A stretch of DNA of 64,000 nucleotides from Bacillus sp. REN16 (GTDB lineage: Bacteria; Bacillota; Bacilli; Bacillales; Bacillaceae_L). The notes under the pieces are model-generated. The model ran no database searches. It was not told the origin of the DNA and worked only from the letters and a program-made list of their open reading frames with translations. Of this stretch, positions 15,007-50,636 are shown one piece after another; position 1 is the first letter of the stretch, and the number at the start of each line of letters is the position of its first letter. The translations under genes and the position numbers were made by a program. The DNA lies in contig NZ_JAJFZK010000009.1 of assembly GCF_020731355.1 (NCBI RefSeq), positions 1-64,000 on the forward strand, read 5' to 3'.

Positions 15007-15120
15007 ATTTTCTATTGAATTCCTTCACAGAATTTGACTCATATATAATTAGTAAACAATTTTCTTGTATTAGGTTACAATAAGATTGTACATAAGCAAA
15101 GGATATGGAGGCAATAAATC

Positions 15121-16236
15121 ATGAAAGATCAGCGTATTGAAACACTTGCTCGAAATTTAATTAATTATTCTGTACGCCTTCAAGAAGGTGAAAAAGTACT
15201 AATTGAAAACTTTGGTTTACAGCGTGAACTTGTCATCGCGTTAGTTAATGAAGCATATAAAGCGGGTGGGTATCCATTTGTATCGTTAAAGGACCATCAG
15301 GTTGACCGCGCCCTCTTGCTTGGGGCACAGGAAAAGCAATTTGAAATGAAAGCGGATTTCGAAGCAAAAGTCATGAGTAAGATGGATGCTTATATCGGCT
15401 TACGTTCAGGTGATAATATCAATGAATTTGCAGATATACCAGACGATAAAATGAAGATTGAAGGAAATACAGTCGGTAAAAAGGTTCATCGTGAAATTCG
15501 TGTTCCAAAGACAAAATGGGTCGTACTACGTTATCCAAATTCTTCAATGGCCCAGCTTGCAAAAATGAGCACAGAAGCATTTGAAGATTTTTATTTTGAT
15601 GTTTGTAATTTAGACTATGGAAAAATGAGCAACGCTATGGATGCTCTAGTTGAACTAATGGATAAGACAGATAAGGTTCGCCTTACTGGTCAAGGTACTG
15701 ACCTTACTTTTTCGATTAAAGGAATCAAAGCAATTAAATGTGCTGGTGAGATGAATATACCAGACGGTGAGGTATATACAGCACCTGTTCGTGATTCAAT
15801 CAATGGTACCTTAACCTATAATACACCTTCACCATATCAAGGCTTTACGTTTGAAAATGTTTCACTTACCTTTAAGGATGGAAAAATTGTGGAAGCGACT
15901 TCGAACGATAATGAGCGTATTAATAAGATTCTTGATACAGATGAAGGGGCACGTTATATCGGTGAGTTTGCAATTGGTGTAAACCCATATATCCAGCATC
16001 CAATGCAGGATATACTATTTGATGAAAAAATCGATGGCAGCTTCCACTTTACACCTGGGCAAGCATATGATGATGCCTACAACGGAAATAATTCAAATAT
16101 CCACTGGGATATGGTGAATATCCAACGACCGGAATATGGCGGTGGAGAAATCTATTTTGATGATGTGCTGATTCGGAAAGATGGCCGTTTCGTCATCACT
16201 GAACTTGAGCCATTAAATCCGGAAAACCTAAAATGA
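15121..16236 (+). CDS. ampS: Aminopeptidase, M29 family
   Basis: A 371-residue cytoplasmic leucyl/arginyl-type aminopeptidase of the thermophilic metalloaminopeptidase family. Conserved metal ligands are recognisable: Glu in CAGEMN, Glu in YIGEFAIG, His/Tyr in FHFTPGQAY, and His/Asp in NIHWDMV. The ATG has TGGAGG at 9-nt spacing. The gene stands alone, with a strong terminator downstream, convergent with murC. In B. subtilis ampS lies elsewhere, so this is a local difference in order. Confidence 0.93.
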   Translation: MKDQRIETLARNLINYSVRLQEGEKVLIENFGLQRELVIALVNEAYKAGGYPFVSLKDHQVDRALLLGAQEKQFEMKADFEAKVMSKMDAYIGLRSGDNINEFADIPDDKMKIEGNTVGKKVHREIRVPKTKWVVLRYPNSSMAQLAKMSTEAFEDFYFDVCNLDYGKMSNAMDALVELMDKTDKVRLTGQGTDLTFSIKGIKAIKCAGEMNIPDGEVYTAPVRDSINGTLTYNTPSPYQGFTFENVSLTFKDGKIVEATSNDNERINKILDTDEGARYIGEFAIGVNPYIQHPMQDILFDEKIDGSFHFTPGQAYDDAYNGNNSNIHWDMVNIQRPEYGGGEIYFDDVLIRKDGRFVITELEPLNPENLK

Positions 16237-45900: not shown

Positions 45901-45922
45901 AAACGTGATTTATATCACGTTT
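45901..45922. promoter_or_regulatory. Fnr/CRP-family operator of the nirK-nos operon
   Basis: AAACGTGAT-TTAT-ATCACGTTT is a perfect 9+9 palindrome containing GTGA-N6-TCAC, the core of the Fnr/CRP recognition site. Its centre (45911.5) lies 41.5 bp upstream of the start point expected from the -10 below, the class II activator position. Confidence 0.8.
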
Positions 45923-45940
45923 GTAGTACCTCCCCCCGAA

Positions 45941-45946
45941 TATGAT
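45941..45946 (+). promoter_or_regulatory. -10 element of the nirK-nos operon
   Basis: TATGAT with no -35 match, as expected for an activator-dependent promoter. The inferred start is about 45953. Confidence 0.65.
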
Positions 45947-45992
45947 GAAGGTGTAGAAAGTAATTAAAAAATTATCCAAGGGGGTAATATTC

Positions 45993-47054
45993 ATGAACAA
46001 AAAAATCAAATTGCTAATTGCTTCATTAGTTGGAACTTCAATCGTTTTATCTGGATGTGGAAGTCAAGAAAAAGTATCTGAGAAAAAAGTAGAGACTCAA
46101 ACAGCACCAGCAGAGTCAAACAGTGGTGAAGTCATTGCACCGCACAAAGACCTTAACCAAGAGCCTGTACCTTTAAAAATTGAAAGAATATCAGAAAATG
46201 AAGTAAACGTTGAAATGACATCTCAAATCACAGATATTGAAATTGACAAAGGTTTCATTTACAAGGCTTGGACCTTTAATGGTGAAGCACCTGGGCCACT
46301 TATCATAGTAAATGAAGGAGACACTATTAACTTTACAATGAAAAATATGGATCCTGCAATCCCACACAGCATGGACTTTCATGCAGTACATGCAGCACCT
46401 TCAAAGGATTTCATTGATGTAATGCCTAACGAAACTGGAACATTCACATATCCAGCAAACAAGCCAGGAGTATTCATGTATCACTGTGCTACACCACCAG
46501 TTCTTACGCATATTGCGAACGGTATGCATGGAACAATTATTGTAAAACCAAAAAATGGGTATCCAAATGACAATGAGATCGACAGAGAATTCGTTATTAT
46601 ACAAAACGAATGGTATAAATACAATGATCTAGATGACATGACGAACGGAGTACCTAGCCAAGTCGTATTCTCTACAAAAGCTCTTAAAGAAGGGGACAGA
46701 AATACAAATGGAGATACCTTCACCCTAAAGGATGAGCCATTACTTGCTAAAGTCGGTGACCGTATAAGACTTTATGTAAACAATGTCGGGCCAAATGAAG
46801 TTAGCTCATTCCATGTGATAGGAACTATATTTGACGATGTGTACATCGACGGTAACCCCTACAATCATATGCAAGGCCTGCAAACTGTGATGCTTCCTGC
46901 AAGCGGCGGAGTAGTTGTTGAATTTACTGTAACAAAAGAAGGAACATACCCTTTCGTTACTCACCAATTTAACCATGCAACAAAAGGAGCAGTTGGTAAT
47001 ATTAAGGTAACGGCAGATGGAAAAGATGACGGCAGTGCAGTCGGAGGACACTAG
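45993..47054 (+). CDS. nirK: Copper-containing nitrite reductase, lipoprotein form
   Basis: Reduces nitrite to nitric oxide in denitrification, on the outer face of the membrane. The signal peptide ends in lipobox LSGC (Cys22). It has two cupredoxin domains (about 65-190 and 195-340). Type 1 copper ligands are His125, Cys165, His173 and Met178; type 2 ligands are His130, His164 and His324; catalytic Asp128 and His274 are present. The Cys-to-His spacing of eight matches the Geobacillus-type NirK loop. AAGGGGG precedes the ATG. It is first in an operon with nosDLYF, behind an Fnr-type promoter. A laccase is excluded by the two-domain layout and ligand pattern. Confidence 0.93.
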   Translation: MNKKIKLLIASLVGTSIVLSGCGSQEKVSEKKVETQTAPAESNSGEVIAPHKDLNQEPVPLKIERISENEVNVEMTSQITDIEIDKGFIYKAWTFNGEAPGPLIIVNEGDTINFTMKNMDPAIPHSMDFHAVHAAPSKDFIDVMPNETGTFTYPANKPGVFMYHCATPPVLTHIANGMHGTIIVKPKNGYPNDNEIDREFVIIQNEWYKYNDLDDMTNGVPSQVVFSTKALKEGDRNTNGDTFTLKDEPLLAKVGDRIRLYVNNVGPNEVSSFHVIGTIFDDVYIDGNPYNHMQGLQTVMLPASGGVVVEFTVTKEGTYPFVTHQFNHATKGAVGNIKVTADGKDDGSAVGGH

Positions 47055-47089
47055 AAAAAAAAGAATCCTTGTTTAATGGGGTGATCATA

Positions 47090-48454
47090 ATGAGGAGAAA
47101 AGTACTATTCTTTCTCCTTTTCTTCTTGTTATTGGGGCAAAATGATGTTTGGGCAAATGAACGAATCGTTACTTCTTCCCTTGAGCTAAAGGATGCGATT
47201 CAGTTATCACAGCCTGGAGATACGATTATTCTAGAAGAAGGAACCTATGAAGATGCGTTTGTTATCAATAAATCTATCATACTACGGGGGAAACCCGGAG
47301 CCATAATAAACGGGCCAACAAGTGGATACCCCATAACAATTGAAGCGGAAAATGTCACAATTGAAAACCTCCAAATCGAGGGCGGTGGCTCTCAAAATGC
47401 GGGAATATATATAAAAACAAACCACGCACAAATCACCAATAACATTATAAAAAACGTGTTTCATGGAGTTTATATTAAAGATGGCTACGGTAATGTAATT
47501 GAAAATAATGAGATCACAAGTGTTGAGGGTGTAGAAAACAATAAAGGATTTGGAGTCTATCTAGTAGATGCTCCATATACAAGAATTAGTGGTAACTATT
47601 TTCATCATTTACAAGATGGCATTTATGTATCTTTCTCAGATTACTGTGCCGTCAGCAACAATCTAATTGAACATGCTAGATATGGCATCCACACGATGGA
47701 TTCAAAAACGGTTACAATTGCAAAAAATGAGATCAATAACAGTCATAATGGCTTAATGATTATGCAAAGTGATGAATTATATATTACAGAAAATTATTTA
47801 CATTCAAATACGACAATTGATGGTGCTGGCATGTTTATCTTTGACACGTTTGACTCAGTCATTAAAGCAAATGTGGTGAAAGAGAATTTTAAAGGAATCT
47901 ATTTTGAAAATGCAAAACGAAACATCGTTGAATTTAATGCTTTCATCCAAAATGACATTGGCTTTGATCTTGCAAAGGATACAACCAATAATGTTATATC
48001 ATTAAATAATTTTATTAAAAATACAAAACAAGTAATTTCAAGACCGGAAAACATGAATTTATTTACCAAAGACGGATATGGAAACTATTGGGATGACCAA
48101 CGTATGATCAATTTAGATGAAGATTCATTTATTGATTTTCCTTATAAGGGTGGAGATATTTTCTTCAATATGACAGCAGATGAACCACTTTTACAAATTT
48201 TCTTCCAAAGTCCAGCCGTTTACTTATGGAATCAAATTGAAGCATTTACACCAATACCAACAAAACATTTCATTGTTGATGAACATCCACTTATCAAAGC
48301 AGCACCGATTTCATTAGGGAATACAGACCCAGCTGAATCTAATGAAGAGAATAAGAAAGACCATCACTCTTTTCAAATTTTTTTACTTGTATTTTTTGTA
48401 TCGGGTAGTGGTTTCATCCTATGGAAAACAAGGAGGGGCAAGGATGAAGTTTAA
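47090..48454 (+). CDS. nosD: NosD-like periplasmic/surface beta-helix protein
   Basis: A 454-residue exported protein. A signal peptide (about 1-20, ending DVWANE) is followed by a right-handed beta-helix of many NosD/CASH repeats (patterns such as N-x-I-x-x-N, GIYI, GVYI, GIHT). A C-terminal membrane segment (about 427-446) comes before a basic tail. NosD works with NosF and NosY in copper-site assembly of nitrous oxide reductase. ATG 47090 (GGGGTG, 6 nt) is preferred to TTG 47069. Its end overlaps nosL. Confidence 0.9.
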   Translation: MRRKVLFFLLFFLLLGQNDVWANERIVTSSLELKDAIQLSQPGDTIILEEGTYEDAFVINKSIILRGKPGAIINGPTSGYPITIEAENVTIENLQIEGGGSQNAGIYIKTNHAQITNNIIKNVFHGVYIKDGYGNVIENNEITSVEGVENNKGFGVYLVDAPYTRISGNYFHHLQDGIYVSFSDYCAVSNNLIEHARYGIHTMDSKTVTIAKNEINNSHNGLMIMQSDELYITENYLHSNTTIDGAGMFIFDTFDSVIKANVVKENFKGIYFENAKRNIVEFNAFIQNDIGFDLAKDTTNNVISLNNFIKNTKQVISRPENMNLFTKDGYGNYWDDQRMINLDEDSFIDFPYKGGDIFFNMTADEPLLQIFFQSPAVYLWNQIEAFTPIPTKHFIVDEHPLIKAAPISLGNTDPAESNEENKKDHHSFQIFLLVFFVSGSGFILWKTRRGKDEV

Positions 48455-48917
48455 GATACTTATTACAATATTATTGATTTTTATATTAGGAGCATGTGGA
48501 AATGATCATTTTGAGCCAGCAAAGATCAACGTTAATGTTGATTCCTGTTTTACTTGTAGCATGGGAATCCAGGATGAGCAAGCATCTGCACAGACAATAG
48601 ATACAGATGGTACACCAAATAAATTTGATGACATCGGTTGTATGATGACCTATTTTCAGGAAAATAAAGATCAAATCAAAATAGGATATGTGCACGATCA
48701 TGATACGAAAGAATGGATTGAATTAGATACGGCTTTTTTTGTTCAGTCTTCAGAAAATGTAACGCCAATGAGCTATGGATTAATCGCATTCTCATCTGAA
48801 TCAGCTGCAAAAGAATGGCAAGAGAAAAATGGTGGAGATCTGTATTCAACAGACCAACTCTTACAACAAGATGTGAAAAGCTTTAAGAAGAATATGAACG
48901 AATCACATCATCATTAA
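48444..48917 (+). CDS. nosL: NosL copper-chaperone lipoprotein
   Basis: A 157-residue lipoprotein (lipobox LGAC, Cys18). It carries the metal-binding motif CFTCSM (Cys35, Cys38, Met40) and a second thiol site in DDIGCMM (Cys66), then the NosL-typical TPMSYGLIAF. It ends in His-His-His. NosL delivers Cu(I) for NosZ assembly in other bacteria; here the client is open. GGAGGGG precedes ATG 48444, which overlaps the nosD end by 11 bp. Confidence 0.9.
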   Translation: MKFKILITILLIFILGACGNDHFEPAKINVNVDSCFTCSMGIQDEQASAQTIDTDGTPNKFDDIGCMMTYFQENKDQIKIGYVHDHDTKEWIELDTAFFVQSSENVTPMSYGLIAFSSESAAKEWQEKNGGDLYSTDQLLQQDVKSFKKNMNESHHH

Positions 48918-48940
48918 TGGAGGAATAGGAGGTAAAGCGA

Positions 48941-49891
48941 ATGAAGATAACTGTTCTTCCAAAAATGATAAAATACGAGCTCATTCTATTAGTAAGAAGT
49001 AAATGGTTGCTTAGTTTTACTGTTCTATTTATGCTCCTTGCATCATTACTCTATTTCTATGGTATCCAGTCTCTAAGTACTAATCCTACCGAGGTTACCT
49101 ATGGTATTGATGGGGTATCGAATACAATTGCGAAGCCTGGACGAGGAATGGATCCATCTTATTTTGGTCTTAAACCGATTGAAAAAGACATCGCCAACGA
49201 AGATATTCAAGCTGGCTACAATCGTGCGATTGCAATGCTAATGAATTTAGCATTATGGATTTTACCTATCATTTGTTTAATTCTAGGTGTCACATCGATC
49301 GTTTCGGATAAGGAGAACAGCAGACTAGCCCTCTATAAGACCTATCAGATTCCATATACTCACTATCTAATTAGTAAATTTGTTGCTTTAGCTGTTTCTC
49401 TAACCGTCTCACTTGGACTTTCTTACGGAATCGGAGGACTCATTTTAGCTATCACTGGACATTCGTTTGAAGCAAATATTTATTCCATGTTTATCGTTTT
49501 ACATCTCTTGGTAATCCTAGTCTTTACTGGGGCATCACTTGTTATTGGCTCATTGAGTTCAACAAGAATGCAGGGCTTGTCATTTTCATTCTTTTTTTGG
49601 AGCTTTGTCCTATTTATTTATGAGTTTCTCATTTTTTCAGTGATTGACTTGATTCCTTATGCTTATAAACTAAAAGGGTTACTCGCATTAATCTTGGTCA
49701 ATCCAATTGAATCAATTCGTATCTGGGCGATCAGCCGTTTACAAGCTGGCTACGTCTTTGGACCCGAATATTTAATATTACAGGATGGAAATACTGCAAA
49801 TCATTTAACCCTTTATCTGGTACTTTCAATCTTTATTATTTTAGGGCTTAACATTCTCTTTTCTAATCAAATTATGAAAAGGAAGGGATGA
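48941..49891 (+). CDS. nosY: NosY-like ABC transporter permease
   Basis: A 316-residue membrane protein with six predicted helices. It has the ABC-2 type layout of NosY, with a long extracytoplasmic loop after the first helix (about 42-88). VTSIVSDKENSRLALYKTYQI is the conserved coupling segment seen in NosY. It pairs with NosF encoded directly downstream. AGGAGG is at 8 nt. Confidence 0.88.
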   Translation: MKITVLPKMIKYELILLVRSKWLLSFTVLFMLLASLLYFYGIQSLSTNPTEVTYGIDGVSNTIAKPGRGMDPSYFGLKPIEKDIANEDIQAGYNRAIAMLMNLALWILPIICLILGVTSIVSDKENSRLALYKTYQIPYTHYLISKFVALAVSLTVSLGLSYGIGGLILAITGHSFEANIYSMFIVLHLLVILVFTGASLVIGSLSSTRMQGLSFSFFFWSFVLFIYEFLIFSVIDLIPYAYKLKGLLALILVNPIESIRIWAISRLQAGYVFGPEYLILQDGNTANHLTLYLVLSIFIILGLNILFSNQIMKRKG

Positions 49892-49896
49892 TTTAA

Positions 49897-50613
49897 GTGA
49901 ATACAGCTATTCTTGATGTTCGCGATATTTCAAAATCATATAAAAAGAAACAAGTTCTTCAGGAATCAAGTTTTGATGTAAAAAAAGGAGATTGTATCGT
50001 TTTATGTGGAGGTAATGGTGCTGGTAAAAGTACGATTATCAAAATGCTAACAGGAATTGAGAAACCGTCTACCGGAAAAATCACTTATCATACAACCAAA
50101 AAGAAAAACTTTGGATATATGCCAGACCAAATGGTATTTCCGAAAGAACAAACACCCATTGAGATTTTAAGCTATTATGGAAGTTTCTTAGGTTCAACAA
50201 AAGAAAAAATACACGAAGTCATAAAAATAGTGGGTCTCTGGAACGAACGAAATCAGAAAGTAGGATCCTTTTCAAAAGGGATGTCACAACGGGTTAATCT
50301 TGCCCAGTGTTTACTTGCTGATGCAGATATTTATATATTGGATGAGCCGACCAATGGTTTGGACCCCTATTGGGTTATAATTTTCAAAAAAATCATAAAT
50401 GATCTCAAGCAAGAAGGCAAGACAGTTATACTAAGCAGTCATATTATGAGAGACATTGTTGATATTGCGGATGAGATCCTGCTAATTTTCAAAGGAAAAA
50501 TATGTGGAAAAGGAAACCCCGATGAGCTATATGAGCATTTTGAATGTAAAAGTCTTGAGGAAATCTTTCTATTGCTTCATGAACAAAATACAAAACTACC
50601 GGTATCCATTTGA
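49897..50613 (+). CDS. nosF: NosF-like ABC transporter ATP-binding protein
   Basis: A 238-residue ATPase: Walker A GGNGAGKST (38-46), signature region FSKGMSQR (125-132), Walker B YILDEPTNGLDP (146-157) and a switch His in SSHIMRD. It powers NosY and, in known systems, acts on the NosD scaffold. The GTG start has AAGGGA at 8 nt and follows nosY by 5 bp. It is the last gene of the operon; a hairpin overlaps the stop. Confidence 0.92.
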   Translation: MNTAILDVRDISKSYKKKQVLQESSFDVKKGDCIVLCGGNGAGKSTIIKMLTGIEKPSTGKITYHTTKKKNFGYMPDQMVFPKEQTPIEILSYYGSFLGSTKEKIHEVIKIVGLWNERNQKVGSFSKGMSQRVNLAQCLLADADIYILDEPTNGLDPYWVIIFKKIINDLKQEGKTVILSSHIMRDIVDIADEILLIFKGKICGKGNPDELYEHFECKSLEEIFLLLHEQNTKLPVSI

Positions 50614-50636
50614 ATCCGGTAGTTTTGTGTTTATAT
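50592..50636. terminator. Bidirectional terminator after nosF
   Basis: AAAACTACCGG and CCGGTAGTTTT pair across 13 nt that include the nosF stop. It can serve the convergent dehydrogenase gene too. Confidence 0.75.

Follow-up and report, generated by a model that had tools for sequence, protein, structure and literature searches.

The nirK-nosDLYF operon of Bacillus sp. REN16 and a probable NirK-specialised clade of Nos copper-loading proteins

The NosL-NosDFY copper relay has been summarised as a transfer from NosL to NosD and on to a client protein, with ATP (PMC13068155). Clusters of nos genes without nosZ, the gene for nitrous oxide (N2O) reductase, have been reported in B. azotoformans and might supply the copper nitrite reductase NirK too (PMC3475470), and a NirK-NosL-NosD cluster of G. 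stearothermophilus has been mentioned as one clustered case (PMC13068155). Both papers put forward copper supply to NirK by such proteins as speculation. In Neisseria, NirK depends on AccA, a chaperone that passes copper on against a favourable affinity gradient and can be dispensed with when copper is added; AccA/PCuAC is missing from some bacteria with NirK, and how the energetic penalty of the transfer is met was left open (PMC13006917). Here, we describe an operon of Bacillus sp. REN16 in which nirK is followed by nosD, nosL, nosY and nosF. It lies in a 64,000 nt stretch of DNA (contig NZ_JAJFZK010000009.1, positions 1 to 64,000; hereafter, the window), and we think it probable, from sequence comparisons, that the copper nitrite reductase it encodes is served by a dedicated NosDLYF copper-loading machine, belonging to a NirK-specialised clade that is separate from the clade serving NosZ maturation. 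The parts of PMC11388526 and PMC13274427 that were available do not mention nirK-nosDLYF, and a search of the open-access literature found no earlier paper with clade, segregation, co-regulation or loss evidence.

Linkage of the NosDLYF set to nirK

The genes nirK (45993..47054), nosD (47090..48454), nosL (48444..48917), nosY (48941..49891) and nosF (49897..50613) are all intact open frames on the forward strand, judged by the window sequence and by Pfam, and presumably share a single transcript. The initial annotation had described nirK as joined to nosDLYF, with a nosD/nosL overlap, a 5 bp spacing between nosY and nosF, and no nosZ between or beside the genes; coordinates and Pfam matches agree with all of this, and the overlap measures 11 bp. 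Its further argument, that tight spacing denotes one functional unit, is a weak one even though the spacing is real, as the block is absent from seven of the eight closest nirK loci.

A scan of species genomes for nirK confirmed 114 relatives, of which 80 loci were kept. In 20 of these, nosDLYF lies directly downstream of nirK in the same order, one carries remnants (L019), 55 lack the set, and four are too short to judge. Two of the 20 have an irregular nosD frame, overlong in L022 and split in L070. Since the same five-gene order recurs in 20/80 loci, a chance arrangement is not an issue, and with nosZ absent from the fetched flanks of all 80 (up to 10 kb where the contig allows), the recurrence that the initial annotation had proposed to look for among relatives is confirmed. 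The pair stays together at several distinct loci in several genera, flanked by leuS and SDR genes, by uppP-like and CNNM-like genes, or by RND-like and prfC-like genes (the last two by eye). In Ornithinibacillus halophilus, locus L039, which is also L130 of genome G257, has a nitric oxide reductase (NOR)-like haem-copper oxidase gene, nirK, nosDLYF and then a second, diverged nirK (67%; 15087-16157, or 247-1407 in L130). Records titled Pseudomonas (L030), Arthrobacter (L073) and Paenibacillus (L027) carry a Bacillus-type nirK, followed in L030 and L027 by nosDLYF, and are probably mislabelled or contaminated.

The NosD tree (56 rows, 52 of them different) resolves three clades: NosZ-linked (13 rows, support 99/95), a third class (16 rows, 100/97) and NirK-type (27 rows, 100/100). 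The NirK-type clade, to which the window NosD belongs, sits on a long stem and consists of 24 rows linked to nirK and three unlinked ones. A warning from the tree program, about the meeting of two long NosZ-linked branches, applies to the NosZ-linked clade. Mapping genomic partner onto the tree takes four changes for four labels. NosZ clusters also differ from NirK-type sets in gene order and make-up, and nosL was recognised in only 2 of 13 of them (BLAST to the window NosL, a lower bound), whereas it is constant in the NirK-type sets. Given the separate NosD clade and the different make-up of NosZ clusters, the REN16 locus does not have the appearance of a nosZ cluster that lost its nosZ.

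Fifty of the 80 loci were followed to their genomes. Among the 20 with linked nirK-nosDLYF, nine have nosZ, and in 9/9 a second nosD adjoins it; the other 11 are without nosZ. The set does not go with a significantly higher frequency of NosZ, which is 9/20 with it and 9/30 in the remaining nirK genomes (Fisher p 0.37); two of the latter, reached from L017 and L036, carry a NirK-type set away from nirK. Loss of nosZ, one of three options raised in the initial annotation, is therefore unlikely, as the NosD lineage stands apart with 100/100 support and the relatives with nosZ carry both sets.

The third class comprises nosD sets unlinked to nosZ (L131-L139; for example, L131:8803-13214), in some of which nosL, nosY or nosF was not recognised. 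An oppositely oriented gene for a lipoprotein of 195-240 aa with a NosL-like part adjoins the set in 9/9 loci, some of them close relatives, and six of the genomes (G039, G055, G082, G086, G094 and G123) gave neither NosZ nor NirK. A different arrangement was seen outside the order in G490 (L157), where nirK lies upstream of nosZ, a nosB-like gene and nosD-nosF-nosY.

A NosD profile was also run against 348 genomes of the order. Eleven genomes scored at least 490 bits, the next best being 334. All 11 have NirK, compared with 33/348 overall, one of these at just 43% identity, while NosZ occurs in 5/11, and in 28/348 overall (27 over the cut-off and one broken). NirK-type nosD adjoins nirK in 8/11 genomes and lies on another contig in three (G032, G188 and G213), all of which still have nirK. 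Hypergeometric P values, which ignore shared descent, are 1e-12 by genome, 1.4e-6 by genus (7/7 vs 21/126) and 3.5e-4 for the three unlinked cases. A class-wide draw of 398 genomes, which overlaps the order sample, gave no additional NirK-type NosD; NirK matches with E no higher than 1e-60 came from 38 of its genomes, and 35 of these are not members of the order. The samples also overlap, for example, at L039 (G257), L053 (G210) and L036 (G188). Across the genomes sampled, nirK-nosDLYF occurs in a single order only, and the NirK of other groups manages without it.

Upstream of nirK is a 22 bp Fnr/Crp-type palindrome, AAACGTGATTTATATCACGTTT (45901..45922, forward strand), found as a motif match, and this type of palindrome has one match in the window against 0.06 expected. 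We take "Fnr" to be the appropriate label for it. The palindrome centre would lie about 42 bp ahead of the transcription start predicted from TATGAT at 45941-45946. In 72/81 loci (the window and the 80 public ones), a GTGA-N6-TCAC box occurs no more than 300 bp ahead of nirK, compared with 58/985 control regions, these being the upstream regions of other mechanically called open reading frames of at least 150 aa in the same public loci, with starts set by script. A relaxed box pattern precedes nosD in 3/3 unlinked NirK-type sets (control 75/985); it was found in 9/13 NosZ clusters, ahead of the preceding gene, and in 0/9 third-class sets. By motif, NirK-type nosDLYF retains a denitrification-type box even away from nirK.

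Proteins, signals and genome of REN16

The window NirK is a copper nitrite reductase of the Geobacillus type with Cu-oxidase domains (Pfam), and aligns over its full length to the solved enzyme GtNiR (3x1e, 595 bits). The initial annotation had called it complete, with its copper ligands, Asp128 and His274, and residue positions in this alignment bear that out: H125, C165, H173, M178, H130, H164 and H324 are identical in the Geobacillus protein, and D128 and H274 are present. We take H125, C165, H173 and M178 to be the type 1 ligands and H130, H164 and H324 the type 2 ligands, and presume catalytic roles for D128 and H274. Its score against TIGR02376 (198 bits) falls under the model cut-off of 296; given the full-length GtNiR match, that model appears to be tuned to other NirK classes. 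NirK is probably a lipoprotein, with Cys22 lying in a lipobox-like stretch, as judged by eye.

NosD, a beta-helix protein with a Pfam NosD domain, narrowly passes the cut-off of TIGR04247 (303.2 bits vs 300), and a profile of 16 NosD sequences matches P. stutzeri NosD (7o0y) at 3.5e-47. H-x-M and M-Q-S stretches are retained relative to that protein, and the C-terminus has a hydrophobic segment (judged by eye). NosL (PF05573), a copper-chaperone lipoprotein, carries C-x-x-C-x-M at residues 35-40 and P108-M109, which are invariant across 16 aligned sequences and include C38-x-M40 and M109. A CXM motif and a second methionine were named as the likely copper ligands of NosL and described as absolutely conserved (PMC6530538). 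The NosL profile matches NosL 7osf at 1.4e-8. NosY is an ATP-binding cassette (ABC) permease (PF12679, ABC2 membrane) that matches 7o0y_D (NosY) at 3.6e-6. NosF, an ABC ATPase with the Walker A motif GGNGAGKST, was assigned by PF00005 (ABC_tran) only, with no NosF-specific model among the 25 NCBIfam matches shown.

At the end of nosF, an 11-bp inverted repeat, AAAACTACCGG/CCGGTAGTTTT, with a 13-nt loop (50592..50626, forward strand) was read from the sequence and is probably a terminator common to the operon and the convergent SDR gene. It is not among the calls of a simple terminator scan, for which the loop limit was 8. Scanning the window for promoters and terminators did no better than shuffled sequence (promoters 25 vs 22.4; terminators 3 vs 2.6).

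The REN16 genome that was searched (4.64 Mb, 73 contigs, 100% complete) gave no NosZ with TIGR04246, there being four partial matches to the cupredoxin part, all below the cut-off and one of them NirK itself. The same model found NosZ above its cut-off in 27/348 genomes of the order, one within the same genus, and so served as a positive control; PF18764 matched nothing, controls included, and was dropped in its favour as uninformative. A profile search found no second NosD, the window copy being the sole one. The option that nosZ lies elsewhere in the genome, also raised in the initial annotation, is thus unsupported.

A check for norB or qNOR had been proposed at the same time. There are seven genome matches to haem-copper subunit I, and none is a full-length qNOR-like frame. 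Two look like A-type oxidases (HPEVY), one like a ba3 oxidase (HPLVY), and the last two are weak. Two subunits, on C6 and C1, lack HPxVY, and each has an adjacent CuA subunit and SCO-like gene; judged by eye, these are candidate CuA-type NORs. NCBIfam gives neither a name, and their scores are far under the cut-offs of the oxidase models. Presumably they would be labelled bNOR or sNOR.

Loss, history and selection

On the NirK tree (support by SH-aLRT, the Shimodaira-Hasegawa-like approximate likelihood ratio test, only), the 21 carriers are all within the 46/80 rows that a starred branch sets off, and their distribution takes at least 12 changes, 7 of them forced. When the NirK sequences of G076, G004 and G312 are added, all 24 linked carriers remain together, the starred set has 49/83 rows, and 12 changes (9 forced) are needed. 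Gain by transfer was considered for this patchy distribution, and by themselves the change counts on the tree do not separate gain from loss.

Comparison of individual loci points to loss in some lines. In B. sinesaloumensis (L007:11100-11200), what stands between nirK and the SDR gene is the beginning of nosD, then the last part of nosF with the terminator, and 47141-50543 of the window is unmatched; by its sequence, this site in a sister species is a deletion scar. C. firmus (L019) retains pieces of nosD and nosY. The window NosD groups with those of F. quinoae and of G004, another genus of the family, and G004 has the same gene order as the window (leuS-like, nirK, nosDLYF, SDR). This grouping, with the scars in L007 and L019, favours loss there. 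In Thalassobacillus devorans, L057 shows a clean absence of the block relative to L052, with 19 unmatched bases. Judging from these sites, the block was once present and was lost in at least some lines while nirK stayed. For loci that lack nosDLYF, inspection by eye for another copper chaperone behind nirK turned up three lipoproteins, of a kind recurring in Neobacillus, that resemble VanY-type peptidases.

The NosD sequences of L036 (S. azotoformans) and L017 (Calidifontibacillus) are close to that of G076 (L156, linked), though the NirKs fall in different parts of the tree, and in this Schinkia group the set may have changed partner, as if nirK had been exchanged. Ratios of nonsynonymous to synonymous substitution (dN/dS) of the four nos genes are 0.06-0.28 (eight pairs, where dS is finite; some are saturated), indicating purifying selection on nosDLYF where it is present.

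The client of the set and comparison with known systems

Co-occurrence, linkage and regulation make NirK the most likely client of the set, and supply of copper to NirK, the third option of the initial annotation, appears by comparison to be the best supported of the three. In a model that follows the P. stutzeri relay from NosL-NosDFY to NosZ, the NosL lipoprotein would take up Cu(I) outside the membrane and pass it to NosD, and ATP hydrolysis by NosF, relayed via NosY, would make NosD release copper into apo-NirK. The recipient, the path of the copper and the part played by ATP are inferred from comparison. The nosDLYF proteins would be made together with NirK, and lineages able to cope without the set would lose it. 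Its losses speak for a conditional role; the set is probably useful yet dispensable, mainly where copper is scarce, which fits the behaviour of Neisseria AccA, itself dispensable with added copper.

Several observations weigh against a dedicated NirK-loading function. Of the eight closest loci, only L014 has nosDLYF; L007-L013 have a full-length nirK without it, and NirK therefore probably has no strict need of the set. More widely, the set is missing from 22/33 nirK genomes of the order sample and was found in 0/35 nirK-bearing genomes outside the order in the class-wide draw, while 28 of the 50 genomes reached through loci lack a full-length NirK-type set (L019, with its remnant, among them), and the nirK frames in loci without the set are mostly full length. 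The P values given above overstate independence, since linked genes travel together, and the unlinked cases amount to three genomes of a single GTDB family, one of which (G213) has its nirK 419 bp from a contig end. Co-inheritance is also not strict, as the NirKs of L036 and L017, whose genomes hold unlinked sets, lie outside the carrier group. From the literature, NirK bacteria without AccA may require no chaperone (PMC13006917), and NosL has been described as CuZ-specific (PMC6530538), a centre that NirK does not have.

Other readings of the locus were weighed against this one. The set might serve general anoxic handling of copper (or sulfur), scavenging or relaying for several exported cuproenzymes with no specific client. 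NosDFY was once proposed as a sulfide supplier (PMC6530538), a "multicopy factory" serving NosZ and perhaps further copper proteins has been spoken of (PMC3475470), the third class of sets occurs in genomes without NosZ or NirK, and in the Schinkia group the set accompanies a NirK of another branch. However, the NirK-type clade was never found without NirK in the overlapping draws of 348 and 398 genomes, and clades track genomic partners closely, while a generalist would be expected to be more widespread, so we rate this as rather unlikely. Similarly improbable, to a slightly greater degree, is that the set supplies copper to the CuA centre in CuA-type NORs of the denitrifiers, its position beside nirK reflecting a shared role in denitrification. 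Genomes with NirK generally need a NOR, the REN16 genome has its two haem-copper subunits without HPxVY next to CuA subunits, and in O. halophilus (L039) a NOR-type gene precedes the nirK-nosDLYF-nirK array; but both candidate NORs are already followed by an SCO-like gene (by eye), which we take to be the usual CuA assembly factor, and linkage is to nirK in 8/11 genomes, with a NOR-like gene beside the block only in L039 among the near neighbours viewed.

That the set is what remains, as relic or spare, of a cluster for NosZ maturation after loss of nosZ would agree with its protein families, which are those of nos clusters, and with the lack of NosZ in REN16 and 11/20 linked genomes. We regard this as very improbable in view of the separate clade, the other gene order, the constant NosL, purifying selection, the coexistence with nosZ-nosD clusters, and a frequency of NosZ that is not significantly higher with the set (9/20 vs 9/30, p 0.37). 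An operon formed by chance, with neighbours functionally unrelated to NirK, would be compatible with the absence of the block behind many nirK genes and with the deletion scars in some, but is just as hard to credit when the pair is kept at several distinct loci and genera and the unlinked copies retain both the box and a nirK in the genome.

Beyond the NirK-dedicated machine that we favour, NosDFYL may, more tentatively, be viewed as a family of client-specific, ATP-driven copper insertases, rather than as a system for N2O reductase maturation, with at least three clades in bacilli (NosZ, NirK and third). For NirK, ATP would then meet the cost of transfer against the affinity gradient measured for the Neisseria chaperone pair. 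If a NirK-dedicated NosDLYF is correct, it would be a second, ATP-driven route of NirK copper supply beside AccA, and would extend beyond N2O reductase the role of a machine that has been described as specific for that enzyme. For genome surveys, nosD, nosL, nosF and nosY are unsafe as markers of N2O reduction, since the 11/20 nirK-nosDLYF genomes without nosZ are expected not to consume N2O. Natural pairs with and without the set at the same locus, such as the T. devorans strains behind L052 and L057, make the idea directly testable.

Among described systems, the REN16 set resembles P. stutzeri NosL-NosDFY (7o0y/7osf) in that its NosD, NosL and NosY have matches among the solved proteins, its NosF belongs to the ABC ATPases, and the NosD and NosL motifs are kept; it differs in lacking NosZ, in having nirK as first gene and the order D-L-Y-F, and in a NosD clade apart from the NosZ-linked NosD of bacilli. 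Cluster 5 of S. azotoformans (nosD5-L5-Y5, without nosZ; PMC3475470), matched here through contig number and coordinates as G188:C120, the contig120 of that paper, belongs to the same NirK-type clade, but is unlinked to nirK in a genome that holds three nosZ. For NosLDFY without NosZ in Parageobacillus thermoglucosidasius, copper delivery to a copper nitrite reductase was likewise proposed (PMC13068155); in the passage concerned, this is a brief speculation on one genome that presents no data on clade, co-occurrence, segregation, regulation or loss. Closest in function would be AccA/PCuAC of Neisseria, which serves AniA (NirK) as a dedicated envelope chaperone and is likewise conditional on low copper (PMC13006917). 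AccA, however, belongs to a different family and acts as one protein with no ATPase, whereas the REN16 set is an ABC machine with NosL.

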